From Microbacterium sp. LWH11-1.2 (lineage in GTDB: Bacteria > Actinomycetota > Actinomycetes > Actinomycetales > Microbacteriaceae), in the NCBI RefSeq assembly GCF_038397745.1, contig NZ_CP151636.1:1612001-1676000 (forward strand): DNA of 64,000 nt, in the 5' to 3' direction. Under the pieces are notes generated by a model, which ran no database searches, was not told the DNA's origin, and was given only the letters and a program-made list of their open reading frames with translations. How positions within the stretch are numbered: position 1 is the first letter of the stretch; each line of letters begins with the position of its first letter. Shown in pieces: positions 9,967-47,369 of this stretch. A program made the position numbers and the translations under genes.

Positions 9967-10605
9967 TCAGCCGCGGACGGCGGACAGCGCTGTCGCGAAC
10001 CGTGCCGCGCGCTGCTCGATGTCCGTCCAGTCGGATGCCGCGATCGACGCGCCGTTCGCCAGATCGCCGCCGGCTCCGACCGCCACCGCACCCGCGGCGA
10101 ACCACGCCGCGAGGTTGTCGGGGCTGACGCCGCCGGTGGGCATGAGGGGAGCGTCGGGGAACGGCCCGCGCAGCGCGCCGAGGTAGGAGGGGCCGCCGAG
10201 AGAGGCGGGGAAGATCTTGACGACGTCGACGCCCAGCGCGAGTGCGCTCATGACCTCGGTCGGGGTCATCGCGCCGGTCATCACGACACGGCCGGTGTCG
10301 AGCATGGTGCGGGTCAGGTCGGGGAGCGTGCCGGGACTCACGAGGAACTCGGCCCCGGCGTCGGCGGCGAGCGCCGCCTGCTCCGGAGTGGTCACGGTGC
10401 CGGCGCCGACGTAGGCGGCATCCCCGTGCCGGGCGATCAGCTCGCGGATCACAGCCGGGGCATCGGGCGTCGAGAACGTGACCTCGATGCCCGTGACGCC
10501 GCCGCGGATGATCGCCTCGGACGCCTCCAGAGCGAGTTCGGGCGAGGGAGCGCGGAGCACGGCGAGGATGCCGGTGGTGCGGGCGCGGGCGAGACGGTCG
10601 GACAT
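9967..10605 (-). CDS. eda: KDPG/KHG-type aldolase (2-keto-3-deoxy-6-phosphogluconate aldolase family)
   Basis: Class I aldolase that splits a 2-keto-3-deoxy sugar-acid phosphate into pyruvate and an aldehyde phosphate. The 212-residue chain has Glu41 in GIEVTF and the Schiff-base Lys130 in VVKIFPAS, the family's catalytic pair, with GAMTPTE before the lysine. Whether it prefers KDPG, the galactonate analogue or 2-keto-4-hydroxyglutarate is not visible. The ATG at 10605 follows GAGGAG. The operator-like palindrome at 10648-10665 is shared with the rbsK/transaldolase and cupin-kinase operons, which places it in the same regulon and suggests it supplies the last cleavage step. Confidence 0.85.
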   Translation of the reverse strand: MSDRLARARTTGILAVLRAPSPELALEASEAIIRGGVTGIEVTFSTPDAPAVIRELIARHGDAAYVGAGTVTTPEQAALAADAGAEFLVSPGTLPDLTRTMLDTGRVVMTGAMTPTEVMSALALGVDVVKIFPASLGGPSYLGALRGPFPDAPLMPTGGVSPDNLAAWFAAGAVAVGAGGDLANGASIAASDWTDIEQRAARFATALSAVRG

Positions 10606-10647: not shown

Positions 10648-10665
10648 AACCTGTAATTACAAGTT
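10648..10665. promoter_or_regulatory. GntR-type operator upstream of eda (site 1 of regulon)
   Basis: AACCTGTAATTACAAGTT, a near-perfect 18-bp palindrome 43 nt upstream of the aldolase. It overlaps a possible -35 (TTGTAA) with GAGAAT 18 nt further on. The same motif occurs at 28956-28973, 47329-47346 and 47352-47369. Confidence 0.75.
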
Positions 10666-26673: not shown

Positions 26674-27489
26674 TCAGCCGACCGTGCCCGCGGGAGAGGC
26701 ACCGCCATCGCCGTCGACGTGCAGGAGGGAGGCCTGTGACTGCTCCTGCCGCAGCTGGAACTCGAAGCGCGACCGATCGCCGCGGTGGTAGGCGATGAAG
26801 TACTCCATGGGGGCGCCGTCGGCGCTGCGGCTCACGCTGCGCAGCCGCAGCAGAGCCGAGCCCGCACTGACGCCGAGGAGCTGCGCCTGCTCGTGGGTCG
26901 CGACCGTGGCCTCCGCCGAGCGGACGCCGTGCGTCGCGACCATGCCGTTGTCGGCGAGGAGGCGGTACAGCGACGCCTCGGTCAGATCGGCGTCGAGGGT
27001 GACGGCGCCGACGGCATCCGGCATCCAGGTCGTGGAGAGCGACCACGGCTCGCCGTCCACATGACGCAGTCGCTCGAGGGCGACGACCGGCGACCCGACG
27101 GGGATCTCCAGGGCGAGCGCGACCTCCTCATCGGCAGTCGTCCGCTCGTGCCGCAGCACGTCGCTGTGCACGTGGCCGCCGCGACGCTCCACGTCGTCGT
27201 ACAGGCCGACGAGCGTGTGCACGAGGCTCTCGCTCGTGCGCGGTCGGGACACGAACGTGCCCTTGCCCTTGACCCGCTCGACCAGCCCTTCGTGCTCCAG
27301 CTGGGCGAGAGCCTGTCGCACGACGGTGCGCGAGATGCCGTAGCGCTCGCACAGGCGGTGCTCCCCGGGCAGCGGATCGCCGGGCTGCAGGCCGTCTCGC
27401 GCGATGCCGTCGATGATCAGCTGGCGCAGCTGGTCGTACATCGGAGCGGCGGAGTGCCGGTCGATCGTGTCCGCAACGGTGCCGGTCAT
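26674..27489 (-). CDS. GntR regulator, HutC/UTRA type
   Basis: A 271-residue transcriptional regulator with an N-terminal winged helix-turn-helix (about 15-80: GDPLPGEHRLCERYGISRTVVRQ start and wing GLVERVKGKGTFV) and a UTRA effector domain to about 250 that binds sugar phosphates or related ligands. It is the last gene of rbsK-rbsD-gntR, starting 1 nt after the rbsD stop. HutC-type proteins bind palindromes with GT-N4-6-AC cores; AACCTGT-N4-ACAGGTT sites lie before this operon and two remote loci, making it the best candidate for a three-locus regulator. Confidence 0.85.
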   Translation of the reverse strand: MTGTVADTIDRHSAAPMYDQLRQLIIDGIARDGLQPGDPLPGEHRLCERYGISRTVVRQALAQLEHEGLVERVKGKGTFVSRPRTSESLVHTLVGLYDDVERRGGHVHSDVLRHERTTADEEVALALEIPVGSPVVALERLRHVDGEPWSLSTTWMPDAVGAVTLDADLTEASLYRLLADNGMVATHGVRSAEATVATHEQAQLLGVSAGSALLRLRSVSRSADGAPMEYFIAYHRGDRSRFEFQLRQEQSQASLLHVDGDGGASPAGTVG

Positions 27490-27490
27490 G

Positions 27491-27895
27491 TCAGTACGCG
27501 ACCCCCGCGTGCAGGATGACGTTCGCATAGGGCGTGAACTCGCCGGAGCGCACGAACGCCCGCGCGCCCTGCGTGAGCTTCTTGAACTCGACGTGCGGCA
27601 CGAGCTCGATCTCGAACCCCATTCCGGCGAAGCGCTCGCGCAGAGCGTCGAGCACTTGCGGGCTCTTCTCGGCGACCTCGGCGGACACCGTCGCGCCCTC
27701 CACCACGAGTTCGGCCAGCACGGTGTCGAGCACATCGAGGAAGGTCGGTGCTCCGGGTCGATACGCCAGGTCGATGCGCTCCGAGCCGAGCGGGATCGGC
27801 AGGCCGGCATCGGTCACGACGAGCAGGTCGGTGTGCCCGGTCTCGCTGATCACCCGCGAGAGCGCGGGATTGATCGTGGTCGCTGACTTGCGCAT
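27491..27895 (-). CDS. rbsD: D-ribose pyranase RbsD
   Basis: A 134-residue sugar mutarotase that converts the pyranose to the furanose form so that a kinase can act; the RbsD/FucU family. Seen: the N-terminal NPALSRVISETGHTDLLV with the catalytic His20, SERIDLAY, and the C-terminal TPYANVILHAGV. It lies between ribokinase and the GntR regulator, overlapping neither. Substrate could be ribose or another pentose, since no ribose transporter is adjacent. Confidence 0.92.
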   Translation of the reverse strand: MRKSATTINPALSRVISETGHTDLLVVTDAGLPIPLGSERIDLAYRPGAPTFLDVLDTVLAELVVEGATVSAEVAEKSPQVLDALRERFAGMGFEIELVPHVEFKKLTQGARAFVRSGEFTPYANVILHAGVAY

Positions 27896-27904: not shown

Positions 27905-28867
27905 TCAGTTCGTCGCGGTCGCGGATTCCCGGGCCTCGAGGAAGGCATCGACATCGGCACGGTGCGGCAGGCTCGGCGACGCGCCCTGCGTGGTCACGGT
28001 CAGCGCTCCGGCCGCCGTGGCCAGGCGCACGGCTTCGCTCAGCGTGCTGCCGTTCGCGAGGGCGGCGCCGAGATAGCCGGCGTAGGCGTCGCCGGCCGCG
28101 GTCGTGTCGACCGCCTCGACCGGGAACGGCGGGACGATCGTCGCGCCCTCCGCCGTCACGACGCAGGACCCCTGCCCCGCGAGCGTGATGACCGCGGCAC
28201 CCACACCCTGCTGGAGGAACCACAGGCCGGCGCGCTCCGCCGACGCGGCATCCGTCACCTCGATCCCGCTGATCAGCGAGGCCTCGGTCTCGTTGGGGGT
28301 GACGATGTCGACGCTCCGCCAGATCTCGGCCGGGAGCTCGGCAGCGGGCGCCGGGTCGAGGATCACGGTCATCCCGTGCTCGCGCCCCCGCGCCGTGATG
28401 TGGGCGGTGAGCGCGGACGGCGTCTCGAGCTGGGTCAGGAGGACGGATGTCGTCGACGCCAGCGCACCGAGCGCGGCGTCGATCTGCTCGGTGCTCAGGG
28501 CGGCGTTGGCGAGCGGGACCATGACGATGTCGTTCTGCGCGGAGGCGTCGACGCGGATGTGCGCGATGCCGGTCGGGCCCGGGACCGTGCGCAGGTGCGT
28601 GAGGTCGACTCCCGCGTCGCCGAGTCCGTCGACGACGAGGTCGTGGAACAGGTCGTCGCCGACGCAGCCCACGAAGCTGGTGCGGGCGCCGGAGCGCCCG
28701 GCGGCGACCGCCTGGTTGGCGCCCTTGCCGCCGAGCATGAGCGTGAACTCGTCGCCGAGGATCGTCTCGCCCCGGGCGGGGAGGCGCCGTGAGAAGGTGG
28801 TCACGTCGGCGGTCACGCTGCCGACGATGACGACGCCGGAGCGATCGCCGGGAAGTGCGGGGGACAT
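27905..28867 (-). CDS. rbsK: Ribokinase-type sugar kinase (PfkB family)
   Basis: ATP-dependent kinase, 320 residues, phosphorylating a furanose at the 5-hydroxyl. The N-terminal LGGKGANQAVAAGRSGA and the C-terminal DTTAAGDAYAG with the catalytic Asp are the two PfkB signatures. ATG 28867 follows AGGAG; an upstream in-frame start is less likely. First gene of rbsK-rbsD-gntR and divergent from the transaldolase-family gene, with a shared operator at 28956-28973. Confidence 0.9.
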   Translation of the reverse strand: MSPALPGDRSGVVIVGSVTADVTTFSRRLPARGETILGDEFTLMLGGKGANQAVAAGRSGARTSFVGCVGDDLFHDLVVDGLGDAGVDLTHLRTVPGPTGIAHIRVDASAQNDIVMVPLANAALSTEQIDAALGALASTTSVLLTQLETPSALTAHITARGREHGMTVILDPAPAAELPAEIWRSVDIVTPNETEASLISGIEVTDAASAERAGLWFLQQGVGAAVITLAGQGSCVVTAEGATIVPPFPVEAVDTTAAGDAYAGYLGAALANGSTLSEAVRLATAAGALTVTTQGASPSLPHRADVDAFLEARESATATN

Positions 28868-28914
28868 CTCGCTCCTGATCCTCTTCGACAGCACGCTCGG
28901 CCGCGTCGGCGTCT

Positions 28915-28944
28915 TTGACAGACGTCGGCGGCTGTCATTACATT
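28915..28944 (+). promoter_or_regulatory. Promoter of the transaldolase-family gene
   Basis: TTGACA (28915-28920), 18-nt spacer, TACATT (28939-28944). Start of transcription would be near 28951, just before the operator at 28956-28973. Confidence 0.6.
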
Positions 28945-28955: not shown

Positions 28956-28973
28956 AACCTGTAACGACAGGTT
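28956..28973. promoter_or_regulatory. GntR-type operator between rbsK and transaldolase (site 2 of regulon)
   Basis: AACCTGTAACGACAGGTT: perfect 7-bp arms around a 4-nt centre, the best copy in the window. It lies immediately downstream of the predicted plus-strand transcription start and 89 nt from rbsK, so binding could block the promoter. Confidence 0.8.
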
Positions 28974-28991: not shown

Positions 28992-29675
28992 ATGACTGCG
29001 ATCGCCCCCCGCCTCTACGTCGACAGCGCCGACGTCGACCGCATCTCCCGGCTGCTCGCCGCCGGCGTCGTGCACGGCGTGACGACCAATCCGACCATCC
29101 TCGAGCGCGGCGACAGGACGGCCGCGGACATCCCGGAGCTGTATGCGCGGTGGGCGGGCGAGGGTGCGCAGGAGATCTTCTTCCAGACGTGGGGAGGTGA
29201 CACGGCGTCCTTCCTGCGCAACGCCGAGGGCATCCGCGCTCTGGGCGACCGCGTGGTCGTGAAGGTGCCGGCCACGGCCGACGGCTTCGCCGCGGCATCC
29301 GCTCTCGTCCGCGACGGCGCGACCGTGCTCGTGACGGCCGTGTACTCCGTGGCGCAGGCACTCGTGGCCGCGAGCATCGGCGTGCGGTACATCGCCCCGT
29401 ACCTCGGACGGATGCGGGATGCCGCCGCCGAGACCGGCTTCTCCGGGCCCGGCGCCGAAGACGTCATCGCCCGCATGCAGGAGGTCTGCGTCGGCAGCGG
29501 CACCGATGTTCTGGCGGCGTCGCTGCGCTCGCCGGAGGACATCGTCGGTCTGCGGATGCTGGGGGTGCCCTACTTCACCGCCGCCCCGGACGTGATCGAG
29601 CGGATGCTCCTCCACGACGTGAGCGACAGCTCGGCTGTGGAGTTCGACGCGGCCATGGAGCGACTCGGGGCCTGA
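28992..29675 (+). CDS. Transaldolase/fructose-6-phosphate aldolase family protein
   Basis: Class I aldolase of 227 residues, in the small-transaldolase (FSA/TalC) size range. Seen: YVDSADV at the start, the substrate loop GVTTNPTIL, and Schiff-base Lys91 in VVVKVPAT. It transfers or releases a three-carbon dihydroxyacetone unit from a ketose or ketose phosphate. It diverges from rbsK and shares its operator, so it probably works downstream of that kinase. The Asp in YVDSAD and the C-terminal region are conserved. Confidence 0.87.
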   Translation: MTAIAPRLYVDSADVDRISRLLAAGVVHGVTTNPTILERGDRTAADIPELYARWAGEGAQEIFFQTWGGDTASFLRNAEGIRALGDRVVVKVPATADGFAAASALVRDGATVLVTAVYSVAQALVAASIGVRYIAPYLGRMRDAAAETGFSGPGAEDVIARMQEVCVGSGTDVLAASLRSPEDIVGLRMLGVPYFTAAPDVIERMLLHDVSDSSAVEFDAAMERLGA

Positions 29676-33120: not shown

Positions 33121-33166
33121 GATTCTCCTGATCGGTCGGTGGGCCGCGTCGGTGCGGCCGGTCTCG

Positions 33167-33200: not shown

Positions 33201-33245
33201 GAGATCCGCGCGAAGAAAACCGCTCGCGCATGGAGAGGAAACCCT

Positions 33246-34541: not shown

Positions 34542-35538
34542 GCGGCGGGTTTCCACGTCGGCGGACACCGGGGAGCGCGGGCACGCCCTCACCGACATCC
34601 CCGCCCTCGGCTACGGCGCCGCGAACGTCGGGAACCTGTTCCGCGCGCTCTCCGACGACGATGCGTGGGCCGTGCTGGATGCCGCGTGGGAGAGCGGCAT
34701 CCGGTACTACGACACCGCGCCGCACTACGGACTCGGCCTGTCCGAGCGTCGCCTCGGCGCGTTCCTCCAGACGAAGCCGCGCGACGAGTACGTGCTGTCG
34801 ACGAAGGCCGGGCGGCTGCTGCGCCCGAACCCCGAGTTCTCCGGCGGCCTCGACACGGCGAACGACTTCCACGTGCCCGACGACCTGCAGCGGGTGTGGG
34901 ACTTCTCGGCAGAGGGCATCCGTCGGAGCCTCGACGAATCGCGCGAACGCCTCGGCATCGAGCGCATCGACCTGCTCTACCTGCACGACCCGGAGCGCAA
35001 CGACCTGGATCTCGCGCTCGCCGAGGCCTTCCCCGCCCTCGAGCAGCTGCGTGCCGAGGGTGAGGTCGCGGCGATCGGCATCGGATCGATGGTCTCGGAT
35101 GCACTGGCCGCCGCCGTCCGCAGCGCCGACCTCGACCTGATCATGATCGCCGGTCGGTACACGCTGCTCGAGCAGCCCGCCGCCGTCGACGTGCTCCCGG
35201 CCTGTCGGGAGCGGGGGACCGGGATCGTCGCGGCATCCGTCTTCAACTCCGGCCTGCTCGCCTCGAGCGAGCCGCGCCGCGACGGGCGCTACGAGTACGG
35301 ACAGCTGCCGGACGAGCTGTGGGAGCGGCTGCTGCGGATCGCCGCGGTCTGCGCCGACCACGACGTGCCGCTGCCTGCAGCCGCCGTGCAGTTCCCGCTG
35401 CAGGCGTCGGGCGTGCGCTCGGTGGTTGTGGGCGGGAGTCGCCCCGAGCAGCTGCGCCAGAACGCGGAGTATGCGGCCCGGCCGATCCCCGAGGAGCTCT
35501 GGGAGAACCTGGCAGCCGACGGCCTCATCCCGGCGTGA
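34528..35538 (+). CDS. Aldo/keto reductase, probable L-fucose dehydrogenase
   Basis: A 336-residue aldo/keto reductase of the D-threo-aldose (L-fucose) dehydrogenase group. The tetrad is visible: Asp and Tyr in YYDTAPHYG, Lys in [10 protein letters not shown], His in YLHDPE. It would oxidise L-fucose to L-fucono-1,5-lactone, the first step of the pathway, and its coupling to fucD (14-nt overlap) supports that. ATG 34528 is preferred; a GTG at 34522 is possible. Confidence 0.82.
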
Positions 35539-36742: not shown

Positions 36743-36758
36743 CTTGGCACGTGCCAAG
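36743..36758. promoter_or_regulatory. LacI operator O1
   Basis: CTTGGCACGTGCCAAG, perfect 16-bp palindrome, 70 nt upstream of the LacI gene start. Related to O2 at 36811-36824, 68 bp away. Confidence 0.85.
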
Positions 36759-36765
36759 AAATGAC

Positions 36766-36794
36766 TTGACTTCGCCTCGCCACCGCCGTAGCGT
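36766..36794 (+). promoter_or_regulatory. Promoter of the ketose 3-epimerase gene
   Basis: TTGACT (36766-36771), 17 nt, TAGCGT (36789-36794). It is bracketed by the LacI operators O1 and O2. Confidence 0.7.
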
Positions 36795-36810
36795 GACTCG
36801 AACGTCGGGA

Positions 36811-36824
36811 TTGGCACGTGCCAA
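36811..36824. promoter_or_regulatory. LacI operator O2
   Basis: TTGGCACGTGCCAA, perfect 14-bp palindrome at about +10 relative to the predicted start of transcription. Together with O1 it could form a repression loop. Confidence 0.85.
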
Positions 36825-36867
36825 CCGGCGAGGCGACGGTGCCGGACACCCGCCTGCGAGAGGCCTC

Positions 36868-37737
36868 ATGAACATCGGCTGCCACGGGCTCGTCTGGACC
36901 GGGAACTTCGATGCCGACGGCATCCGTCTCGCTGTGGAGAAGACGAAAGCGGCGGGATTCGATCTCATCGAGTTCCCCCTCATGGATCCGTTCTCGTTCG
37001 ACGTGGCGGCCGCGAAGGACGCGCTCGAGGAGCACGACCTCGCGGTGAGCGCATCGCTCGGGCTGTCCGAGGCGACCGACGTCACGAGCTCCGACCCCGC
37101 GATCGTCGCGGCGGGCGAGGCGCTGCTGATCCGCGCGGTCGACGTGCTCGCCGAGTTGGGCGGCGAGCACTTCTGCGGGGTGATCTACAGTGCCATGAAG
37201 AAGTACATGGAGCCCGTGACGCCCGAAGGACTCGCGAGCAGTCGCGCCGCCATCGCGCGGGTCGCCGACCACGCCGCCGAGCGCGGGGTGTCGGTGTCGC
37301 TCGAGGTGGTCAACCGCTACGAGACCAACGTGCTGAACACGGCACGTCAGGCGCTCGGCTACCTGGCGGAGGTCGACCGGCCCAATGTCGGGATCCACCT
37401 CGACACGTACCACATGAACATCGAGGAGTCGGATATGTTCGCGCCGGTCCTCGACGCCGCTCCCGCCCTGCGCTACGTGCACATCGGCGAGAGCCATCGG
37501 GGCTACCTCGGCACCGGGACGGTCGACTTCGACACCTTCTTCAAGGCGCTCGGCCGCATCGGGTACGACGGTCCGATCGTCTTCGAGTCGTTCTCGTCGG
37601 CCGTGGTCGCTCCTGATCTCAGCCGGATGCTGGGCATCTGGCGGAACCTCTGGACCGACAACGACGAACTGGGCGCCCACGCCAACGCGTACATCCGCGA
37701 CAAGCTCGTGGCGGTCGAATCGATCCGCCTGCACTGA
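36868..37737 (+). CDS. Ketose 3-epimerase, D-tagatose/D-allulose 3-epimerase-like
   Basis: A 289-residue TIM-barrel epimerase that moves the C3 hydroxyl of a free ketose. The metal-binding and catalytic set is visible: Glu146 (SLEVVNR), Asp179 (HLDTYHMN), His205 (YVHIGES) and Glu240 (VFESF); EVVNRYETNVLNTA is the signature of D-tagatose 3-epimerase/D-psicose 3-epimerase-type enzymes. The substrate might be D-allulose, D-tagatose or an L-ketose. ATG 36868 starts the fold. It is regulated separately from the fucose genes by the divergent LacI protein. Confidence 0.83.
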   Translation: MNIGCHGLVWTGNFDADGIRLAVEKTKAAGFDLIEFPLMDPFSFDVAAAKDALEEHDLAVSASLGLSEATDVTSSDPAIVAAGEALLIRAVDVLAELGGEHFCGVIYSAMKKYMEPVTPEGLASSRAAIARVADHAAERGVSVSLEVVNRYETNVLNTARQALGYLAEVDRPNVGIHLDTYHMNIEESDMFAPVLDAAPALRYVHIGESHRGYLGTGTVDFDTFFKALGRIGYDGPIVFESFSSAVVAPDLSRMLGIWRNLWTDNDELGAHANAYIRDKLVAVESIRLH

Positions 37738-37924
37738 GGCGGGCAGCCGGATCCGGCGGCGGGAAGATCAAGATGTTATTACAGGCCTTCCCCATCCGTG
37801 CTTCGTTAGATACATTCAGATACAACTTGCGCGGAAGAGGCGCAGGCCGCAGAATTGATCCGATGTTTACTGCGGCCCGCATCGCCGGACTCGCAACATG
37901 ACCTTCAAGGAAGCAGGTGAGCAC
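37738..37924. other. Intergenic region before the ABC importer
   Basis: 187 nt. It holds two direct AGATACA repeats (37808-37814, 37818-37824), exactly 10 bp apart as expected for one helix face, and the fucose-regulon site C at 37858-37870 overlapping a TTTACT -10-like box (37866-37871). No hairpin terminator for the epimerase is evident. Confidence 0.6.
37858..37870. promoter_or_regulatory. Fucose-regulon operator, site C
   Basis: ATCCGATGTTTAC, identical to 33181-33193 over all 13 positions, and preceded by TTG as at 30416-30418. It would link the importer to the fucose catabolic genes. Confidence 0.65.
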
Positions 37925-39427
37925 ATGAGTGAGCCCATTCTCAGAGTGGAGGGGATCAGCAAGGGATTCCCCGGTGTGCAGGCGCTGAAAGACGTGCACC
38001 TGGAGGTGCGTGCCGGCGAGGTGCTGGTGCTGGTGGGAGAGAACGGCGCCGGCAAGTCGACGCTGATGAAGATCCTCTCCGGGATCTACACCAAGGACGA
38101 GGGCACCATCACGTTCGAGGGGCAGGAGGTCGAGCTCACCAGCCCGCTGCAGGCCCAGGAGCTCGGCATCACGATCATCCATCAGGAGCTCAACCTGATG
38201 CCGGATCTGACCGTCGCACAGAACATCTTCGTAGGCCGTGAGCCGACTTCCGGCCCCTTCCTCTCCGAGCGGAAGCTCAACACGCAGACCGCTGAGCTGC
38301 TCAAACGGCTCGAGATCCGCCTCGACCCGCGCCAGCTCGTCGGCGAGCTGACGGTCGCCGAGCAGCAGATGGTCGAGATCGCCAAGGCCCTGTCGTTCAA
38401 CGCCAAGGTCCTGATCATGGACGAGCCGACATCGGCCCTCACCGACACCGAGGTCGAGACGCTGTTCGTGCTGATCGAGCAGCTCAAGGCCAGCGGCACC
38501 GGCATCGTCTACATCTCGCACCGCATGGACGAGCTCCGCCGACTCGCCGACCGGGTGACCGTGCTGCGCGACGGCACATACATCGGATCACTCGACCGGG
38601 CCGACGTCACGATCCCGACGATCATCGAGATGATGGTGGGCCGCGTGATCGACGAGGGCACCCGGCCCCAGGCGCGCGAGCACATCAACGATCCGATCGT
38701 CCTCGACGTGCAGGGCCTCTCGACGAGGAACCTGCTCAAGGACGTGTCGTTCCAGCTGCACAAGGGCGAGATCCTCGGCTTCGCCGGACTCATGGGCGCC
38801 GGCCGCACCGAGACCGCGCGCGCCGTCATCGGCGCCGACCACCGCGACGGCGGCACGATCTCGATCAGCGGACGTCCGGTGCGCATCGGCCAGCCGGCGG
38901 ATGCCGTGAAGCACGGCCTCGGCTACCTCTCCGAGGACCGGAAGCTGCTCGGACTCATGCTCGAGCAGGACGTCACGTTCAACACGGTGCTCGCCTCGCT
39001 CGGCTCGTACGCCAACGGCATCGGCTGGATGGGCGACAGCAAGGCGAAGAACCGCACCAAGGAGTACGTGCAGCAGCTGCGGGTGAAGACGCCCTCGGTC
39101 AACCAGGTCGTCAAGCTCCTCTCCGGAGGGAACCAGCAGAAGGTCGTCATCGCCCGGTGGCTGATGCGCGACTGCGACATCCTCATCTTCGACGAGCCGA
39201 CCCGAGGGATCGACGTCGGCGCGAAGGAGGAGATCTACCGCCTCATGCAGCAGCTCGCTGACCAGGGCAAGTCCATCATCGTCATCTCATCGGAGCTCCC
39301 GGAGATCCTCCGCGTCGCGAACCGCATCGCGGTCTTCGCGAACGGTCGCATCACCGGGACGCTCCGCAACGAGGAAGCCAGCCAGGAGAAGATCATGCAA
39401 CTCGCAGCCCACGGGGAGGAAGACTGA
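37925..39427 (+). CDS. Sugar ABC importer ATPase with two ABC domains (RbsA/XylG type)
   Basis: CUT2-class ATPase of 500 residues. Domain 1 has a normal Walker A GENGAGKST and signature LTVAEQQMVEIAKAL-type; domain 2 has the degenerate GLMGAGRTE and LSGGNQQKV typical of RbsA-like proteins. It energises the downstream permease and binding protein. ATG 37925 is favoured by spacing and the family start; an upstream ATG at 37898 adds nine residues. The fucose-type operator upstream suggests L-fucose or a related deoxyhexose as substrate, which is inference. Confidence 0.9.
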   Translation: MSEPILRVEGISKGFPGVQALKDVHLEVRAGEVLVLVGENGAGKSTLMKILSGIYTKDEGTITFEGQEVELTSPLQAQELGITIIHQELNLMPDLTVAQNIFVGREPTSGPFLSERKLNTQTAELLKRLEIRLDPRQLVGELTVAEQQMVEIAKALSFNAKVLIMDEPTSALTDTEVETLFVLIEQLKASGTGIVYISHRMDELRRLADRVTVLRDGTYIGSLDRADVTIPTIIEMMVGRVIDEGTRPQAREHINDPIVLDVQGLSTRNLLKDVSFQLHKGEILGFAGLMGAGRTETARAVIGADHRDGGTISISGRPVRIGQPADAVKHGLGYLSEDRKLLGLMLEQDVTFNTVLASLGSYANGIGWMGDSKAKNRTKEYVQQLRVKTPSVNQVVKLLSGGNQQKVVIARWLMRDCDILIFDEPTRGIDVGAKEEIYRLMQQLADQGKSIIVISSELPEILRVANRIAVFANGRITGTLRNEEASQEKIMQLAAHGEED

Positions 39428-40461
39428 TGAGCACCCCACAGCAGCCCGGATCGTCGACGACGACGGTCATCCAGACGGCGGTGAACGAGAACACCGACAA
39501 GCGCGACGTCGGAGCGTTCCTGAAGCGCCAGCTCCAGCAGTCGCTGGCATTCGGCACCCTCATCGTCCTGGTGATCTTCTTCACGATCGCCAGCCCGAAC
39601 TTCTTCACCTTCAGCAACATCGCCACCGTCCTCCTCTCGACCGCGGTCATCGGCATCCTCGCCCTCGGCACGACGTTCGTCATCATCACCGGCGGCATCG
39701 ACCTGTCGATCGGCACCGGCATGGCGCTCTGCGCCGTGATGACCGGTGTGTTCGTGACCAACATGGGCCTCCCGGTCTGGGTCGGCGTGATCGGCGGCGT
39801 GCTGACCGGTGTGCTGATGGGCCTGGTGAACGGCGTGAACATCACGTTCCTCCGGCTTCCTCCGTTCATCGCCACGCTCGCGATGATGATGATCGCGGGC
39901 GGTCTCGCCCTCGTCATCTCCAACGTCTCGCCGATCTACTTCTCCACCTCGGCGCCGGACTTCAAGAAGATCGCGCTCGGCGTGATCATCCCCGGCATCC
40001 CGAACGCCGTGCTCATCACGGCCGTCGTCGCGATCATCGCGTGGCTGGTCCTGTCGAAGACGCTCCTCGGCCGCTACACCTTCGCGATCGGCTCCAACGA
40101 GGAGGCCACGCGTCTCTCGGGTGTCAACACCCGTCGCTGGACGATCCTCATCTACATGTTCGCCGGCGCCTTCACCGGCATCGCGGGCATCGTGATCGCC
40201 GCTCGCCTCGACTCGGCCCAGCCGCAGATCGGCATGGGGTACGAGCTGCAGGCGATCGCCGCGGTCATCATCGGCGGCACCTCGCTGCTGGGCGGCCGCG
40301 GATCCATCCTCGGCACCGTGATCGGCGCGCTCATCATGAGCGTGCTCGTCAACGGCCTGCGCATCCTGTCGATCCAGCCCGAATGGCAGAACATCGTCGT
40401 CGGCGTCGTCGTGCTGCTGGCCGTGTTCCTCGACTCGCTGCGCAACCGCCAGCGGACCTGA
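39427..40461 (+). CDS. Sugar ABC importer permease (RbsC type)
   Basis: A 344-residue CUT2 permease with a charged N-terminus of about 40 residues and roughly eight to ten membrane helices. Family motifs include GTTFVIITGGIDLSIG and IIGGTSLLGGRGS. Its ATG shares one base with the ATPase stop (TGATG), indicating translational coupling. Confidence 0.92.
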   Translation: MSTPQQPGSSTTTVIQTAVNENTDKRDVGAFLKRQLQQSLAFGTLIVLVIFFTIASPNFFTFSNIATVLLSTAVIGILALGTTFVIITGGIDLSIGTGMALCAVMTGVFVTNMGLPVWVGVIGGVLTGVLMGLVNGVNITFLRLPPFIATLAMMMIAGGLALVISNVSPIYFSTSAPDFKKIALGVIIPGIPNAVLITAVVAIIAWLVLSKTLLGRYTFAIGSNEEATRLSGVNTRRWTILIYMFAGAFTGIAGIVIAARLDSAQPQIGMGYELQAIAAVIIGGTSLLGGRGSILGTVIGALIMSVLVNGLRILSIQPEWQNIVVGVVVLLAVFLDSLRNRQRT

Positions 40462-40546
40462 AGCAGTTCGACCCGACTCAACTGAATAGCACCACGCAGT
40501 CCACCGTCGGCCCCGGCCGGCAATCACAGAGAACAATGGAGTTTCC

Positions 40547-41548
40547 ATGACATTCGGCAAGAAGACCGCATTCGCGGCACTCGTGGCAGCATCCGCGCTG
40601 GTGTTCGCCGGCTGCGCCGGCGGCGGAGACGTGATCGAAGAAGGCAGCGGCGGCGGCAGTGGCTCAGGCGACGGCGAGATGTACATCGCCCTCGTCTCGA
40701 AGGGCTTCCAGCACCAGTTCTGGCAGGCCGTGAAGAAGGGCGCGGAGCAGAAGGCGGAAGAGCTCGGCGTCAAGATCACGTTCGAAGGCCCCGCGGCCGA
40801 GACCGAGATCGCCGGCCAGCTCGAGATGCTGACCGCCGCGATCGACAAGAACCCGGATGCCATCGCCTACGCGGCGCTGGACCCCGAGGCCTGTGTCGCC
40901 CCGCTCGAGCAGGCGAAGTCGAAGGACATCCCTGTCGTCTACTTCGACGCTCCCTGCAACGGCGACGTCGGGCTCAGCCTGTCGGCGACCGACAGCAAGG
41001 TCGCGGGCGCGCTCGCCGCAGAGCACATGGCCGAGCTGATCGGCGGTGAGGGCCAGGTCGCGATCGTGGGCCACTCGCAGATCAACTCGACCGGTGTCGA
41101 GCGTCGTGACGGCTTCGTCGAGAAGATCGAGGCCGACTACCCCGACATCGAGATCGTCGACATCCAGTACGGCGACGGCGACCACCTGAAGTCGGCCGAC
41201 ATCGCGAAGACGCTGATCGCGGCGCACCCCGACCTCAAGGGCATCTACGGCACCAACGAGGGCTCGGCCATCGGCGTCGTGAACGCCGTGAACGAGCTCG
41301 GCCTGGAGAAGGGCAAGATCACGATCGTCGGCTTCGACTCCGGAGCGGCGCAGATCAACGCCATCAAGGACGGCACCATGGCCGGCGCCATCACGCAGGA
41401 CCCGATCGGCATCGGCGAGCAGGTCGTGCAGGCCGCCTACGACGCGGCCAACGGCAAGGAGGTCGACGAGTTCTACGACACCGGTTCCTACTGGTACGAC
41501 AAGACCAACATCGAAGACCCGAAGATCGCCGCAGTCCTCTACGAGTGA
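40547..41548 (+). CDS. Sugar-binding lipoprotein of the RbsABC-type importer
   Basis: Periplasmic-binding-protein-like receptor of 333 residues (RbsB family). Signal peptide with lipobox FAGC (Cys23), Gly/Ser linker, then the domain with FQHQFWQAVKKGAE, the central KDIPVVYFD and YGTNEGSAIGVVNA. It binds a monosaccharide outside the cell. 85 nt separate it from the permease, enough for an internal processing or start site. It ends the operon and is followed by a terminator. Confidence 0.9.
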   Translation: MTFGKKTAFAALVAASALVFAGCAGGGDVIEEGSGGGSGSGDGEMYIALVSKGFQHQFWQAVKKGAEQKAEELGVKITFEGPAAETEIAGQLEMLTAAIDKNPDAIAYAALDPEACVAPLEQAKSKDIPVVYFDAPCNGDVGLSLSATDSKVAGALAAEHMAELIGGEGQVAIVGHSQINSTGVERRDGFVEKIEADYPDIEIVDIQYGDGDHLKSADIAKTLIAAHPDLKGIYGTNEGSAIGVVNAVNELGLEKGKITIVGFDSGAAQINAIKDGTMAGAITQDPIGIGEQVVQAAYDAANGKEVDEFYDTGSYWYDKTNIEDPKIAAVLYE

Positions 41549-41668: not shown

Positions 41669-42217
41669 ATGACCACCACCCCCGCGCGACCTGACGGCTC
41701 CAACACCGTCAACCCCTTCCTCATGACCGACGACGCCGCACGGATCATCGACTTCCTCACGCGCGTCTTCGGCGCGATCGACGTGCCCGAGGCGCGGACG
41801 CTCGACACCGACGGGCTGATCCTGCACTCCGAGCTGCGCATCGGAGACTCCCTGATCACGGTGGCGGATCGCAAGCCGGACTGGCCGTTCACGCCCGGCT
41901 TCCTCCAGGTCTACGTCGACGACGTCGAGGCGACGCTGGAACGCGCGGTCGCGCTCGGTGCGCGCATCGTGACCCGCCCGACGGACTTCTTCGGCGACAC
42001 GTTCTCGCGCTTCACCGATCCGTCCGGCAATCTGTGGTGGGTGTATCGGCACGAGCCGCAGGAAGCGGCCTGGGATGCCGCGCCGGCTGTGGACGCCGGA
42101 ACGACCGATGCCGACGCCGAGGACTGGTCCAGCTTCACCTCTCCGGAGCTCGAGTACATCCACGAGAGCCTGGTCGAGGCGATGACATCGTTGCAGGATC
42201 CGCGGCTCGCGAACTGA
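41669..42217 (+). CDS. VOC (glyoxalase/bleomycin-resistance fold) family protein
   Basis: A 182-residue vicinal-oxygen-chelate protein. The paired beta-alpha-beta3 units are seen: NPFLMTDDAARIIDFLTRVFGA at the start and VYVDDVEATLERAVALGA in the middle, ending in FTDPSGNLWWVYRH. Members include dioxygenases, isomerases and binding proteins; no function can be assigned. The last 50 residues are an acidic extension. Ribosome-binding site AAAGGA upstream. Unrelated in strand to its catabolic neighbours. Confidence 0.75.
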   Translation: MTTTPARPDGSNTVNPFLMTDDAARIIDFLTRVFGAIDVPEARTLDTDGLILHSELRIGDSLITVADRKPDWPFTPGFLQVYVDDVEATLERAVALGARIVTRPTDFFGDTFSRFTDPSGNLWWVYRHEPQEAAWDAAPAVDAGTTDADAEDWSSFTSPELEYIHESLVEAMTSLQDPRLAN

Positions 42218-42328: not shown

Positions 42329-43297
42329 TCACGCCGAGAGCGTGAGCAGGCGCGCGGGGTTGGCGATCAGCATCCGGTCCACGGCGTCATCGCCGATCAG
42401 CGCGCGGAGACGCGGGACGTAGCGCTCGCCGAGGTAGCCGAGGCCCGGCATGCCGCCGTAGGCGAGGTAGCGGGTGCGTCGCGCGACGTCTCCGCCGAGC
42501 ACCACACGATCGCCCGCTCCACGCTCGACGACGGATGCGGTCAGCGCCAGCAACTCGGCATCGGACCGCGTGCGCGGCCGCGCGAATCCGTCGTACCCGA
42601 GGTAGGCGCCGCGTTCGGTGAGGGAGACGTGCAGCCCCGGATCCGGATCGCGGTCGGCGTGCGCCAGGACCACCCGATCGGATGCCACGCCCTCGGCCGC
42701 GAGCAGATCGAGGACCTCATGGGCTGCGGTGCAGAACTCCAGGTGCACCATCACCGGCGCACCGGTCTCGCGGTGCGCGGCGGCGACGGCGAGGAGGCTC
42801 GTGCGTTCGAAGGGGCTGATGCGCCAGTAGTCGATGCCGGCCTTCAGCAGCCCGGCGCGCACCGGCTCGCCGTGGGTGGTCGCGGCGAGTGGGACCTCCG
42901 GCGTCTCGAACACCGCGGTGTCGGCATCCGGCATCCCGCGGGTGAGGTCGGAGCGGAACAGCGCGGCCAGGCGGTCGACCGTCCAGACCTGCATCGGATG
43001 GTCCGCTCCGTAGTGCGCCTCGCGATGCCGGCCCGTCGTCGCGATGATGTGCAGGCCGGTCGTCGCACTGATCCGCGCCAGCGCCGCGGGGTCGCGGGCG
43101 AGGCCGAACGGGGTCGCATCGACCATCGACTCGAAGCCGCTCGCCTTCAGCAGCCCCGCTTCTGCGCCCGACGCGCGCTCGTCGTCGAGCTCATCACCCG
43201 GCAGCAGAGGCGACACCTGGAACAGATGCTCGTGATAGTCCACGCGCCCGAGCGCGGCCGGTTCGACATCGCCGAGCACCGTCCGGACGACCGGCAT
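42329..43297 (-). CDS. Phosphotriesterase-family hydrolase, probable sugar-lactone (phosphate) lactonase
   Basis: A 322-residue binuclear metal hydrolase of the PTE family. All expected ligands are present: His22 and His24 (DYHEHLF), Lys152 (LKAGIDYW, carboxylated in the family), His185 (VHLEFC), His213 (LAHADRDP) and Asp270 (LGGDV). Characterised bacterial relatives outside true phosphotriesterases hydrolyse lactones, including pentonolactone 5-phosphates; that specificity is inferred. It is the last of five overlapping genes. An operator upstream of the operon links it to rbsK, transaldolase and eda. Confidence 0.83.
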   Translation of the reverse strand: MPVVRTVLGDVEPAALGRVDYHEHLFQVSPLLPGDELDDERASGAEAGLLKASGFESMVDATPFGLARDPAALARISATTGLHIIATTGRHREAHYGADHPMQVWTVDRLAALFRSDLTRGMPDADTAVFETPEVPLAATTHGEPVRAGLLKAGIDYWRISPFERTSLLAVAAAHRETGAPVMVHLEFCTAAHEVLDLLAAEGVASDRVVLAHADRDPDPGLHVSLTERGAYLGYDGFARPRTRSDAELLALTASVVERGAGDRVVLGGDVARRTRYLAYGGMPGLGYLGERYVPRLRALIGDDAVDRMLIANPARLLTLSA

Positions 43298-44256
43298 CAG
43301 CGCACCGACTCCGCCGCCTCGGCGAGCCGCTCGACGGTCTCGGGGGTGAGGTCGAGCTCGAACACGTCGGCCACGACCTGCGACCAGCCGTGGATGAAGT
43401 AGCGCCAGCCGTCGACCACGTGCAGCGACCGGGCGGTCTCCTGCGCGTGGGCCTGGTGCAGGAACTCGAGCGAGCCGCGGTAGTTGAACTCCCACGCGTA
43501 CGCGCCCTCGGGGAACACGACCGCGTCGGTCAGCGGAGAGCCGGGGCGATCCTTGCCGAGTCCCGTGGCGTTCGCGATCACCGATCCCGGGGGAGCGGCG
43601 GCCACGACCGCGTCGGCCTCGTCGGGGGTGGCCGTGACGATGTAGTCGATCAGCCCGTCGCGGGTGCCGTGCTGGCGGTGCACCTCGCGGAGATGGTCGA
43701 GCTTGTCCTGCGAGCGGGCGGTCACCGTGACGCGAGCGGGAGCATCGGCGCGCTCCGCGAGCGCCCAGCTGAGCGCCGTGCCCGAGCCGCCGGCTCCGAG
43801 GATCACGACCTCCGCTCCTGTGCGGGCGAAGTGGTCGGCGGGGAGGAAGTCGTTCAGCGCCAGGTCGACCGTGATCGGATCCTTCGCGCGGCCCGACAGC
43901 AGCGCGCCGCGCTTGGAGATGCTCGAGATCTCGGCGCACGACACCGCGAACGGATCGAGCTCGTCGAACAGATCGGATGCCGCGGCGTACACGTTCATCT
44001 TGTGCGTGGTGACGAGGGCGCCGCGGTGGTGCGGGTCGTCGCGGATCTGCTCGACCATCGCCCGGTACTGCGCCGGATCGGCATCCATCGGCAGGTCGTG
44101 GCCGATCAGCGTGCGGGTCGGGAGGCCCAGGATGTCGGCCCAGAGCGGGAACACCTTCATGATCGACGACGACGCCGTCGTCACGCCGACGAAGCCCATG
44201 TAGTTCGACGGCACGGTCTCGATCGTCTCCGGATCGGTGGTGAGGGACGAGGTCAT
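43297..44256 (-). CDS. Shikimate dehydrogenase-like oxidoreductase
   Basis: A 319-residue protein with the two-domain shikimate/quinate dehydrogenase fold: a substrate domain with VTTHK (the usual catalytic lysine) near 88 and a nucleotide-binding motif GAGGSGTA near 151. The canonical N-T-D region is replaced by RAKDPITVD, and it has 20 extra N-terminal residues, so it is probably not the aromatic-pathway AroE. It may oxidise a polyhydroxy acid or its phosphate in the operon's pathway. Shares one base with the lactonase start. Confidence 0.75.
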   Translation of the reverse strand: MTSSLTTDPETIETVPSNYMGFVGVTTASSSIMKVFPLWADILGLPTRTLIGHDLPMDADPAQYRAMVEQIRDDPHHRGALVTTHKMNVYAAASDLFDELDPFAVSCAEISSISKRGALLSGRAKDPITVDLALNDFLPADHFARTGAEVVILGAGGSGTALSWALAERADAPARVTVTARSQDKLDHLREVHRQHGTRDGLIDYIVTATPDEADAVVAAAPPGSVIANATGLGKDRPGSPLTDAVVFPEGAYAWEFNYRGSLEFLHQAHAQETARSLHVVDGWRYFIHGWSQVVADVFELDLTPETVERLAEAAESVR

Positions 44257-44265
44257 CGGAGGCTC

Positions 44266-45219
44266 CTAGCGGGCGGTCACGGGGTGGGCGGGCTCTGCGC
44301 CCCTGAGCACGGCGAGGACGTCGTCGAGCGAGATCGAGCCCATGTTGTCCACGGCCTGGGTGGTCTGCGCCCCGAGATGAGGAGTCACGATCACCCGGTG
44401 CGCGAGGGCCGGATCGAGCAGAGGGCTGGCCTGGGCGGCGGTGTCGCCGTCGAGCGTGTCGGCGGCGTAGGCGGACAGGATGCCGTCGCGCAGCGCCTCG
44501 GCGACGGCGGTCTCGTCGACGAGGTCGCCGCGCGCCGTGTTCACCAGCACGGTGCCTCGTCGCATATGGGCGAGCCGTCCGGCGTCGACGAGCAGCTGAC
44601 CGCCCGGGGCGTGCAGCGTGATCACGTCGGCGACGCGGAACAGCTCGTCGAGGTCGATCGGCTCGGCGCCGTTCGCCCGGATCAGGTCGGCGGACAGGAA
44701 GGGGTCGGCGGCGACGACGCGCGGCCCGAAGCCGCTCAGGCGCCTCGCCACGCCCTGGCCGATGCGGCCGAAGCCGACGATCCCCACGACGGCCGCCCCC
44801 AGCTCGCGTCCGCGTCGCACGCTCCAGTCGCCCTCGCGCACCCGGCGGTCGCCGTCCGGCACGGACCGCAGCGCGGCCAGCATGAGACCTGTGGCGTGGT
44901 CGGCGACGGCATCCGCATTGGCGCCGGGGGTGTTGGTGACAGGGATGCCGCGGCGACGGGCCGCCTCCAGATCGACGGCCTCCGTGCCGACGCCGTAGCG
45001 GGCGATGACCTTGAGGCGCGGCCCCGCGTCGAAATGCTCGTCGGTGACGGCACCCGTGCCGGCGATCCAGGCATCCGCGCCATGCAGCAGCGGACGCAGC
45101 TCGTCGAGGTCGTGGTGGGCGGGACCGCGCAGGATGCGGTGACCGGCCTGTGCCGCCCGACCGACGAGGTCGAGGTCGCCGTCCGAGAACGAGCGGCTGG
45201 TGACGAGGATCACGCCCAT
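44266..45219 (-). CDS. D-2-hydroxyacid dehydrogenase (PGDH-like)
   Basis: NAD-dependent dehydrogenase of 317 residues. Seen: ARYGVGTEAVD near the active site, cofactor motif GFGRIGQG near 151, catalytic Arg in NTARGDLVD, Glu in the following region and His in VTPHLGAQT. It resembles phosphoglycerate dehydrogenase-like enzymes but lacks the C-terminal ACT domain, so a catabolic 2-hydroxy- or keto-acid substrate is likely. Its ATG shares a base with the kinase stop. Confidence 0.85.
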   Translation of the reverse strand: MGVILVTSRSFSDGDLDLVGRAAQAGHRILRGPAHHDLDELRPLLHGADAWIAGTGAVTDEHFDAGPRLKVIARYGVGTEAVDLEAARRRGIPVTNTPGANADAVADHATGLMLAALRSVPDGDRRVREGDWSVRRGRELGAAVVGIVGFGRIGQGVARRLSGFGPRVVAADPFLSADLIRANGAEPIDLDELFRVADVITLHAPGGQLLVDAGRLAHMRRGTVLVNTARGDLVDETAVAEALRDGILSAYAADTLDGDTAAQASPLLDPALAHRVIVTPHLGAQTTQAVDNMGSISLDDVLAVLRGAEPAHPVTAR

Positions 45220-46709
45220 CAGCTCGGCCGTCCTGCGAACCAGGGCGCGAGAGCCGAGTAGGCCTCGGCGAAGCGGGCGTGGCGCTCGACATAGACCGCG
45301 TGACGCCCGGCATCCGGGGTGAACTCGGCGGTCACCTCGCTCAGCGCGCGCGCCGCGGCGAAGTCGGCGAGGCCGAGACCGACCGCGCCCGTGACCGCGG
45401 CGCCGAGGCTGTTCGCCTCTTCGACGATCGTGCGTCGGCGCACCGGCACACCCCAGACATCGGCGAGGACGGACAGGTACACGTCGCTCTGCGCTCCGCC
45501 GCCGACCGCATCGATGCGGTCGATCACGGCGCCCGAATCCCGGAACGCCTGGATGCACGTGAGCAGGTTGAAGGCGGTGCCCTCGAGCACCGCGCGCGTG
45601 AGGTGGGCGCGCTGATGATGGCGTGCGAGGCCGACGAAGGCGCCGCGCGCGTCGGGATCCCAGAGCGGGGAGCGCTCGCCGAGGAGGTACGGGAGGAAGT
45701 AGAGGTCGTCGGTGTCGACGTCACCGGAGGCTTCGGCGATGAGCCGACCAGTCTGCGGGTGCGCCGGATCGGGGGAGAGGGCTTCGGCGATCCACTGCAC
45801 GGATGCTCCGCCGGCCTGCATCGTCGCGGTCGGGACGAACGACCCCGGCACGACGTTGTCGAACGTGAAGGTGCGCATCGCCGGATCGTGCAGCGGCTGA
45901 TCCGCGGCGAACGAGATCCACGACGACGTGCCGAGGCAGACGTACGCGCCGTCCTCGGGTGCGACCACGCCGGAGCCGACGGCGGCCATCGGGCCGTCTC
46001 CGCCGCCCATGACCACGGGGACGCCGGCAGGCAGGCCGAGCGCCTGGGCCGCGGCATCCGTCAGTCCGCCGGCGATCGCGGTCGAGTCGAGGATCTCGGG
46101 GAACAGGGCGGGGTCGAGGCGCGCAGCCTGCAGCACCTCGTCGGACCAGGTGCCGGTGCGCTGGTCGTACGCGTTCGTTCCCGAGGCATCGGAGCGGTCG
46201 GTCGCCAGGCGTCCGGTGAGGCGCAGCACGATGAAGTCCTTGGCGACGCAGACGCGGCGCACGCGCGACCAGATGTCTGGCTCGTGGTCGCGCACCCACA
46301 TGACCTTCTCGAGGGAGTAGGTCGGGTTGAGGCGATGACCGAGGATCGCGTAGGCGTGCTCGGCGCCGAGGGCGGCTTCGAGCTCGCGCTGCTGCGCCCC
46401 CGCACGGGTGTCGGCCCAGATGATCGCCGGACGCGCCGGCTCGCCGTCGGCGTCGAGAAGCACGGCGCCCATCATCTGCCCGCTCACGACGAGGCCGGCG
46501 ATGGCGGCAGGGGCCGTCTCGGTGCGGGCGAGCAGATCGCGGGTCGCGGCGACGACCGCGTTCCACCAGTCGGCCGGTTCCTGCTCGGCGATGCCACCGG
46601 CGGCGAAGTGCGCCGGGTAGGGCACGGTGACCGCGGCGACCAGTCGGCCGTCGTCGTGATGCAGGGACGCCTTGTTCCCCGTGGTCCCCAGGTCGTGCGC
46701 GATGAGCAT
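45219..46709 (-). CDS. FGGY carbohydrate kinase, xylulokinase-like
   Basis: ATP-dependent sugar kinase of 496 residues. The N-terminal HDLGTTGNKAS phosphate loop, GLVVSGQMMG, IWADTRA with the catalytic Asp, and the C-terminal GGGAQSD ATP-binding motif are all present. The family phosphorylates ketopentoses, polyols and related sugars; closeness to XylB is only general. Starts 9 nt after the cupin gene and overlaps the next gene by a base. Confidence 0.88.
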   Translation of the reverse strand: MLIAHDLGTTGNKASLHHDDGRLVAAVTVPYPAHFAAGGIAEQEPADWWNAVVAATRDLLARTETAPAAIAGLVVSGQMMGAVLLDADGEPARPAIIWADTRAGAQQRELEAALGAEHAYAILGHRLNPTYSLEKVMWVRDHEPDIWSRVRRVCVAKDFIVLRLTGRLATDRSDASGTNAYDQRTGTWSDEVLQAARLDPALFPEILDSTAIAGGLTDAAAQALGLPAGVPVVMGGGDGPMAAVGSGVVAPEDGAYVCLGTSSWISFAADQPLHDPAMRTFTFDNVVPGSFVPTATMQAGGASVQWIAEALSPDPAHPQTGRLIAEASGDVDTDDLYFLPYLLGERSPLWDPDARGAFVGLARHHQRAHLTRAVLEGTAFNLLTCIQAFRDSGAVIDRIDAVGGGAQSDVYLSVLADVWGVPVRRRTIVEEANSLGAAVTGAVGLGLADFAAARALSEVTAEFTPDAGRHAVYVERHARFAEAYSALAPWFAGRPS

Positions 46710-46718
46710 GGCCGCGGC

Positions 46719-47294
46719 CTATCCCGCGTAGGGACGCAGGTCGACGCCGTCGGCCGCACGGTAGGCGCGCGAGCCCATGCCGTGCTCGAGCACCCAGCCG
46801 TAGTCGTGGCCGGCGCCGCCTGGATACACGGCGAGGAACGCGTAGGGCTCGTCGCCGGTGTTGACCGAGCGATGCGCCCACCCCGGCGGGATGTAGCCGA
46901 TGGTACCGGGGAGCATGTCGAGCCATTCGGTGCGCTCGCCGTCGAACATGAGCAGTCCGCCGCGTCCCTTGAGCGCGAGGTAGATCTCGCCCTGGTGGTT
47001 CGGATGCTGGTGCCCCTTGGTCATCCACAGCTCGCCGGACGTGTCGCCGGGCATGATCGTGGTGATCGACTGGGGGAGCTCGCGGTCGATCTCGGGGACA
47101 GGGGAGCTGACGACGGTGTAGACGACCGGGTCGTCGCCCGCGGATGCCGCGGCCCAGGCGTCGGCGTCGAGGAAGAGGCCCTCGAGATCGGACATCCGCC
47201 GGGTGAGGGTCGGTCCTTCGGGGGAGAGCGTCAGCTTCTCGGCATCGAAGGCGATCGCCATCGGGGAGATCGGCGGGGTGTGGAACTCGGGCAT
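46719..47294 (-). CDS. Cupin-type glucose-6-phosphate isomerase-like protein
   Basis: A 191-residue single-cupin protein resembling archaeal phosphoglucose isomerase. The metal motif HQHPNHQGEIY (His, His, Glu) lies near residue 98 and the fourth ligand in GWAHRSVN near 143. It would interconvert an aldose (phosphate) and ketose. It is first in the operon; ATG 47294 follows AAGGAG. The two operators at 47329-47369 lie just upstream. Confidence 0.82.
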   Translation of the reverse strand: MPEFHTPPISPMAIAFDAEKLTLSPEGPTLTRRMSDLEGLFLDADAWAAASAGDDPVVYTVVSSPVPEIDRELPQSITTIMPGDTSGELWMTKGHQHPNHQGEIYLALKGRGGLLMFDGERTEWLDMLPGTIGYIPPGWAHRSVNTGDEPYAFLAVYPGGAGHDYGWVLEHGMGSRAYRAADGVDLRPYAG

Positions 47295-47328
47295 CGGTGC
47301 TCCTTGCGAGGATGCTGCGGCGCTGCGC

Positions 47329-47346
47329 AACCTGTAATGACAAGTT
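47329..47346. promoter_or_regulatory. GntR-type operator upstream of the cupin-kinase operon (site 3)
   Basis: AACCTGTAATGACAAGTT. It overlaps the predicted start of transcription of the minus-strand operon, whose -10 box TACACT reads 47353-47348. Confidence 0.78.
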
Positions 47347-47351
47347 GAGTG

Positions 47352-47369
47352 TACCTGTGATGACAGGTT
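47352..47369. promoter_or_regulatory. Second GntR-type operator upstream of the cupin-kinase operon (site 4)
   Basis: TACCTGTGATGACAGGTT, 23 bp from site 3 and on the other side of the -10 box. Paired operators suggest tight repression. Confidence 0.75.

Follow-up and report, generated by a model that had tools for sequence, protein, structure and literature searches.

A predicted GntR/HutC regulon for sugar-phosphate catabolism, found as one cluster in related bacteria and as scattered genes in most Microbacterium

Two described GntR/HutC regulators, NagR (YvoA) and DasR, and two described sugar routes, the Entner-Doudoroff pathway (Zwf, Pgl, Edd, Eda) and the KguK/KguD route for 2-ketogluconate, offer the closest comparisons for a set of genes in Microbacterium sp. 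LWH11-1.2. The stretch analyzed (the window) is 64,000 nucleotides (nt) in length, NZ_CP151636.1 positions 1,612,001-1,676,000, in a genome of one contig of 4,223,098 bases. Within it the palindrome AACCTGT-N4-ACAGGTT is found at three separate loci, i.e. a cupin isomerase operon, the rbsK-rbsD-gntR genes with a divergent FSA-type aldolase gene, and eda. These scattered loci very probably form one regulon controlled by the product of the gntR gene.

The Entner-Doudoroff pathway appears to have a common logic with the route proposed here: a sugar-phosphate lactone, a lactonase and a 2-keto-3-deoxy-6-phosphogluconate (KDPG)-type aldolase. However a shikimate dehydrogenase (SDH)-like enzyme would stand for Zwf, a hydrolase of the phosphotriesterase (PTE) or metallo-beta-lactamase (MBL) fold for Pgl, and a 2-hydroxyacid dehydrogenase (HADH) in the place of Edd. 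The KguK/KguD route employs a kinase and a 2-hydroxyacid dehydrogenase on a phosphorylated sugar acid, with 6-phosphogluconate as the end product. Both enzyme types are common to the two systems, however KguK/KguD has no lactone step. The earlier note on this DNA could name no known pathway with this combination, and a search of open-licence papers, with most subscription journals outside its range, likewise found no description of the gene set. The regulation is of a familiar type; the enzyme combination is undescribed in the searchable literature.

The operator and its repressor

The four palindromes reported in the earlier note are all present (Table 1), and the two at the cupin operon are spaced 23 bp apart, start to start. 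A scan of the window returned these four operators and a single 3-mismatch match at position 57388, whereas 100 shuffles of the window gave a mean of 0.30 matches at 3 or fewer mismatches and none of the 100 reached five. A scan of the whole genome with the 18-bp motif, which had been proposed as a check, shows that the motif is not scattered; no site apart from the four window operators has 0-1 mismatch. Four further sites have 2 mismatches, and 42 are found at 3 or fewer (22 in the reversed control). One of the 2-mismatch sites, at 544578, falls within an open frame next to a gene for an ABC ATPase and was set aside as a further target. The coding-frame test returned frames at the other three and over the real operators alike. 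A chance motif is ruled out by the genome scan, by conservation in relatives and by loss of a site together with the regulator.

A promoter-like sequence directed toward FSA ends 11 bases before the operator at 28956, so that bound repressor would cover the likely transcription start. The sequence at 28956 is thus consistent with the proposal that site placement fits repression. A simple consensus-promoter scan found none near the cupin, eda and ABC transporter sites, so that the suggested flanking -10 boxes are not shown there.

Both the N-terminal GntR winged helix and the C-terminal UTRA domain of the window GntR protein score above cut-off, and its closest solved structure is DasR. According to the NagR study (PMC4333415), Arg48 reads G-4, Arg38 reads G-5 and wing residue Gly69 reaches G-7. 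In the alignment, Arg54 and Gly75 of the window protein correspond to NagR Arg48 and Gly69 and His44 replaces Arg38, with an offset of 6 throughout (the Arg38 position was matched via the DasR Arg). NagR and DasR share with the window protein the UTRA domain, the T-3/G-4 half-site, the 4-bp centre and the Arg48 and Gly69 equivalents. They differ in the set of genes controlled, in having Arg38 rather than His, and in their dre sites; the window operator keeps T-3 and G-4 but has T at -5 where the NagR operator has G. In 21 of 22 aligned GntR proteins of the family the residue at the Arg38 position is other than Arg (16 His, 3 Leu, 1 Tyr, 1 Val). The changes in protein (His44) and in DNA (T at -5) thus appear to agree, with one exception, a Nocardioides protein described below.

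Table 1. Features of the window with coordinates, strand and sequence matches
Feature	Position	Strand	Remarks
KDPG/2-keto-4-hydroxyglutarate (KHG)-type aldolase (eda)	9967..10605	-	TIGR01182 186.6 bits (cut-off 156.05)
Operator of eda	10648..10665	.	1 mismatch
GntR/HutC (UTRA) repressor, proposed regulator	26674..27489	-	UTRA PF07702 125.6 bits; GntR PF00392 70.2 bits
RbsD, sugar pyranase	27491..27895	-	D-ribose pyranase model 148.4 bits (cut-off 93)
RbsK-like PfkB kinase	27905..28894	-	Ribokinase model 288.6 bits (cut-off 299.65, narrowly missed)
Promoter-like sequence toward FSA	28915..28944	+	TTGACA-N18-TACATT, 10 of 12
Operator between rbsK-rbsD-gntR and FSA gene	28956..28973	.	Exact match (0 mismatch)
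FSA-type transaldolase/aldolase	28992..29675	+	PF00923; FSA model 125 bits (cut-off 245.95, not reached)
Sugar epimerase-like TIM barrel, possible member	36751..37737	+	PF01261; top-scoring model D-psicose 3-epimerase at 167 bits (cut-off 300, not reached)
Weak fifth operator-like site before ABC transporter	37770..37787	.	4 mismatches, core intact
CUT2-type sugar ABC transporter, probable regulon member	37898..41548	+	Beside cluster in most related loci
ABC ATPase	37898..39427	+	
ABC permease	39427..40461	+	
ABC binding protein	40547..41548	+	
PTE-family hydrolase, proposed phosphosugar lactonase	42329..43297	-	PF02126 137 bits (cut-off 22.4)
SDH-like oxidoreductase	43297..44256	-	Shikimate/quinate dehydrogenase fold
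D-2-hydroxyacid dehydrogenase (HADH), phosphoglycerate dehydrogenase (PGDH) branch	44266..45219	-	PF02826, PF00389; best NCBIfam PGDH 212 bits, below cut-off 454
FGGY kinase, xylulokinase-like	45219..46709	-	XylB TIGR01312 395.8 bits (cut-off 380.25)
Cupin sugar(-phosphate) isomerase, GPI family	46719..47294	-	PF06560 69.9 bits (cut-off 20.7)
Operator, proximal, cupin operon	47329..47346	.	1 mismatch; kept in relatives
Operator, distal, cupin operon	47352..47369	.	1 mismatch to 18-bp motif; kept in relatives

Arrangement and conservation in related genomes

Related loci were collected with the SDH-like protein as bait; a relative is encoded at 179 loci, and 80 named ones (L numbers) were retrieved. 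Six of the 80 display the complete set together, i.e. FSA / rbsK rbsD gntR cupin FGGY HADH eda SDH-like PTE (L058, L059, L062, L066, L076 and L080; two Cryobacterium, two Agrococcus, one Mycetocola and one Microbacteriaceae assembly). Several others are near-complete, with one or two members missing. Within Microbacterium the genes are together, as a nearly full set, in L085 (M. suaedae) and in genome G043 (L145 and L160), and L052 is intermediate; most other Microbacterium have the cupin operon without adjoining gntR, rbsK and eda. The clusters of Plantactinospora, Goodfellowiella and Streptomyces aculeolatus (L070, L077, L084, L093) contain an ABC transporter, and rbsK, rbsD and FSA were not found in these four. 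Across families the kinase is accompanied by HADH, eda, SDH-like and PTE. Judging from the outgroups, the joined arrangement would be older than the scattered one.

Between phyla the SDH-like protein is the one that has changed least, with 43-53% identity to plasmid copies compared with 30-39% for cupin, eda and HADH. In one Microbacterium branch (L026-L032, L034-L039, L045, L054) FGGY is not preceded by the usual cupin; its place is taken by a cupin of 32-37% identity in divergent orientation.

Co-occurrence was analyzed in 59 Microbacterium genomes (G numbers), the LWH11-1.2 genome included. The GntR gene is present in 12, the SDH-like gene (at least 59% identity) in 13, or 18 counting paralogues near 50%, and eda (at least 64% identity) in 15, or 16 counting one at 49%. 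All 12 genomes with GntR have both SDH-like and eda (Fisher, 1e-11 for SDH-like and 4e-10 for eda, with kinship of the genomes ignored). An eda without a GntR match is found in G023 (83% complete), G030 (77%) and G034 (100%).

The region upstream of cupin or FGGY was readable in 67 of the 80 loci, i.e. 39 from Microbacterium and 28 others, the latter including one Microbacterium locus, L085; 13 were unreadable. The core yTGTN4ACAr is found within 130 bp upstream in all 39 Microbacterium loci and in 20 of the 28 others, compared with 0.66% of random stretches of the same loci. The distant relatives L068, L069, L070, L077 and L084 show ATCCTGTN4ACAGGAC at the same position. Of the 12 GntR genomes, 8 have the rbsK/FSA site with 0-1 mismatch, and G042, G033 and G043 have it with 2, 3 and 4 mismatches, respectively; the stretch fetched from G040 ended short of it. 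For eda, 14 of the 16 loci were checked. Twelve have the core before the gene, 37-44 bp and once 81 bp from the match, with 1-5 mismatches to the full motif. In G023 (L149) and G034 (L154) the eda orthologue is kept and displays no operator core, and neither genome has a GntR or SDH-like match; G023 is an incomplete assembly, while G034 is complete. This loss of the eda site where GntR is absent is taken as the strongest sign that GntR is the protein of the site. Together with the uniqueness of the motif, the single cluster in relatives, the co-occurrence and the agreement with NagR residues, it supports the common GntR regulon that had been suggested from the window alone.

Predicted gene functions and the neighbouring transporter

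The gene identities are as the earlier note described them, per domain and model searches. The best solved relatives of the cupin are archaeal phosphoglucose isomerases (E 9e-42), and its H-x-H, E and H residues align with those of the archaeal enzyme, which places it by predicted family and metal motif with the GPI-type isomerases. The SDH-like protein has the overall fold of shikimate/quinate dehydrogenase and resembles quinate dehydrogenase as well as 5-ketofructose reductase, which acts on a sugar. Identity to shikimate/quinate dehydrogenases and to 5-ketofructose reductase (7cok) is however about 15-24%, and no curated model is reached; the best AroE score is 33.4 bits against a cut-off of 252. 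The closest solved relative of the PTE is the phospho-furanose lactonase Lmo2620 (3pnz), over nearly the whole length (E 2.6e-38). The phospho-furanose lactonase model gives 100.7 bits against a cut-off of 630, thus the PTE is not classed as this enzyme but is only proposed to work like one.

The ABC transporter converges with the cupin cluster and only a glyoxalase-like gene (glyoxalase family, 41669-42217) lies between them, an order also seen in several relatives. The transporter probably belongs to the regulon, judging from the upstream sequences. A site with 4 or fewer mismatches is found 110-150 bp before it in 36 of 38 Microbacterium loci (perfect in L052, missing in L031 and L085), against a background of about 6% per 300-bp stretch. 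The statement that no transporter is attached to these genes is thus probably wrong, although most outgroups do not show the site.

The sugar recognized by the binding protein is not indicated by the models; the best named one, D-allose, gives 133.5 bits, below the cut-off of 335. Its closest solved folds are 6sw4, 3g1w, 5dkv, 4wut and 4rxt, and the rhizobial binding protein of L096 is close to 4ry9 (E 1.1e-116). The ligands of four of these are presumably tagatose (5dkv), D-fucose (4wut), D-arabinose (4rxt) and D-talitol (4ry9); they were not used as evidence. Close to the transporter start, at 37805-37828, a further conserved motif, AAGTTGTATCTGAATGTATC on the minus strand, may serve as operator for a different regulator; it is also present in outgroup loci, e.g. 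L062, L067, L076, L080 and L087. A LacI-type gene is found near the transporter.

The region 29722-35538 encodes an FCD-type GntR protein (29722-30399), an amidohydrolase, a short-chain dehydrogenase (SDR), an enolase-family dehydratase and an aldo-keto reductase, which look like the genes of a non-phosphorylated L-fucose route. The transporter may therefore also serve another sugar. Fucose isomerase- or dehydratase-type genes adjoin the cluster in other genera as well.

Proposed pathway and alternatives

The explanation favoured is that one GntR-controlled regulon encodes one pathway, found as a single cluster in relatives and scattered in most Microbacterium, and a probability of roughly 0.6 is assigned to it as a whole. 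The repressor, encoded last in rbsK-rbsD-gntR, is predicted to bind yTGT-N4-ACAr at the cupin operon (two sites), at rbsK/FSA and at eda, and probably also at the ABC transporter. Its release would be triggered by an intermediate of the pathway, probably a sugar phosphate. The imported substrate would be a rare ketose or aldose. After uptake by the ABC system it would receive a phosphate from the FGGY kinase or alternatively from the RbsK-like one, the cupin would convert ketose phosphate to aldose phosphate, the SDH-like enzyme would oxidize the ring form to a phosphorylated lactone, the PTE would open the lactone ring, HADH would oxidize at C2, and the KDPG-type aldolase would cleave the product. 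This order of steps is tentative and is given just short of an even chance.

A lactone intermediate is suggested by an exchange of hydrolases. Rhizobial-type plasmid clusters gave 15 matches, of which 8 were fetched and 7 are annotated (L100 was fetched and carries no annotation). All seven have an MBL-fold hydrolase beside HADH and none has a PTE match. The MBL-fold hydrolases of L096 and of a second locus in the LWH11-1.2 genome (L183) give 42.3 and 36 bits with the L-ascorbate-6-phosphate (UlaG) lactonase model (cut-off 306) and score better on a generic hydrolase model (NCBIfam). Thus two unrelated folds, both with known sugar-phosphate lactonases, occupy one slot. The second locus (G000:C1:1871752-1888089; L182 and L183), outside of the window, resembles the rhizobial clusters and has two SDH-like paralogues, a cupin, an MBL-fold hydrolase, a glycerol-kinase-like FGGY kinase, alcohol dehydrogenases, a CUT2 ABC system and an RpiR-type regulator.

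Several observations weigh against the favoured explanation. Neither eda nor HADH was seen at the second SDH-like locus. The window's transporter site is a weak one, and in 14 of 18 outgroup loci the best match there has at least 5 mismatches. The strict core is missing upstream of cupin or FGGY in 8 of the 28 non-genus loci (L063, L066, L067, L071, L081, L089, L090, L093), some of which have near-matches. The GntR matches in G036 and G043 each hold one in-frame TGA. The GntR protein of L091 (Nocardioides) has Arg at the Arg38 position, yet its site keeps T at -5. Several enzyme assignments score below curated cut-offs, and actinobacterial eda appears to differ from the Thermotoga enzyme at residues of the presumed phosphate region; the window eda has Gly where Thermotoga enzymes have Ser or Gly.

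The end products depend on the aldolase. No dehydratase was found in the window cluster or the annotated related clusters, save one in a neighbouring operon of L098, and no 6-phosphogluconate dehydratase (Edd) gene adjoins eda in the clusters examined, the whole genome not having been searched for edd. The aldolase would therefore either receive a 3-deoxy acid or release hydroxypyruvate. If the same regulon served a 3-deoxy sugar, e.g. 3-deoxyfructose, the route would lead straight to KDPG, which eda would cleave to pyruvate and glyceraldehyde-3-phosphate; every enzyme is then accounted for and the lack of a dehydratase is expected. This is unlikely, however, as the varied binding proteins and kinases of related clusters suggest commoner and more diverse substrates, the second locus of the LWH11-1.2 genome is without eda, and nothing on a 3-deoxyfructose route was found in the open-licence literature. 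With an ordinary sugar the aldolase would release hydroxypyruvate together with glyceraldehyde-3-phosphate (from a hexose) or glycolaldehyde phosphate (from a pentose). This follows if the C2 dehydrogenase yields a 2-keto acid still bearing the C3 hydroxyl, and the psicose-epimerase-like and allose-binding-like neighbours, both below cut-off, fit rare hexoses. However the cluster has no hydroxypyruvate reductase beyond HADH itself, and this aldolase family would have to cleave a 2-keto acid that bears a 3-hydroxyl, so that the ordinary-sugar version is rather doubtful although it deserves serious consideration.

The genes could instead form an ordinary ribose or xylulose regulon in which RbsK, RbsD, the FGGY kinase and the isomerase do the work and the rest are accessory or serve other substrates. 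The RbsD and XylB models were passed, RbsK nearly so, and the transporter is of the CUT2 type, but the kinase keeps the company of HADH, eda, SDH-like and PTE from family to family, and it is rbsK, rbsD and FSA that drop out of the distant clusters L070, L077, L084 and L093; this makes such a regulon quite improbable. It is less credible still that the palindrome belongs to another regulator, or is an inherited functionless promoter sequence. The FCD-type GntR gene and the LacI-type gene are nearby candidates, however the eda site is lost where GntR is absent, the distant taxa examined preserve the site at these genes only, and it fits the residues of the window GntR protein.

An undescribed phosphorylative-oxidative sugar route with an SDH-fold enzyme that forms a lactone phosphate from a ring-form sugar phosphate, a PTE or MBL lactonase, C2 oxidation and a KDPG-type aldolase without dehydratase may exist in Actinomycetota and Pseudomonadota as well as in one or more Chloroflexota genomes, with scattered genes under one GntR repressor in most Microbacterium that have it; this wider statement is possible but somewhat doubtful. 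If true, a large family annotated as 'shikimate dehydrogenase' (of 7994 candidates scored, 7880 match at E 1e-3) would gain a role, and phosphosugar lactonases would be placed in a metabolic context. The genes would also clearly exemplify a cluster dismantled while its operator travelled along, with both arrangements found within one genus.

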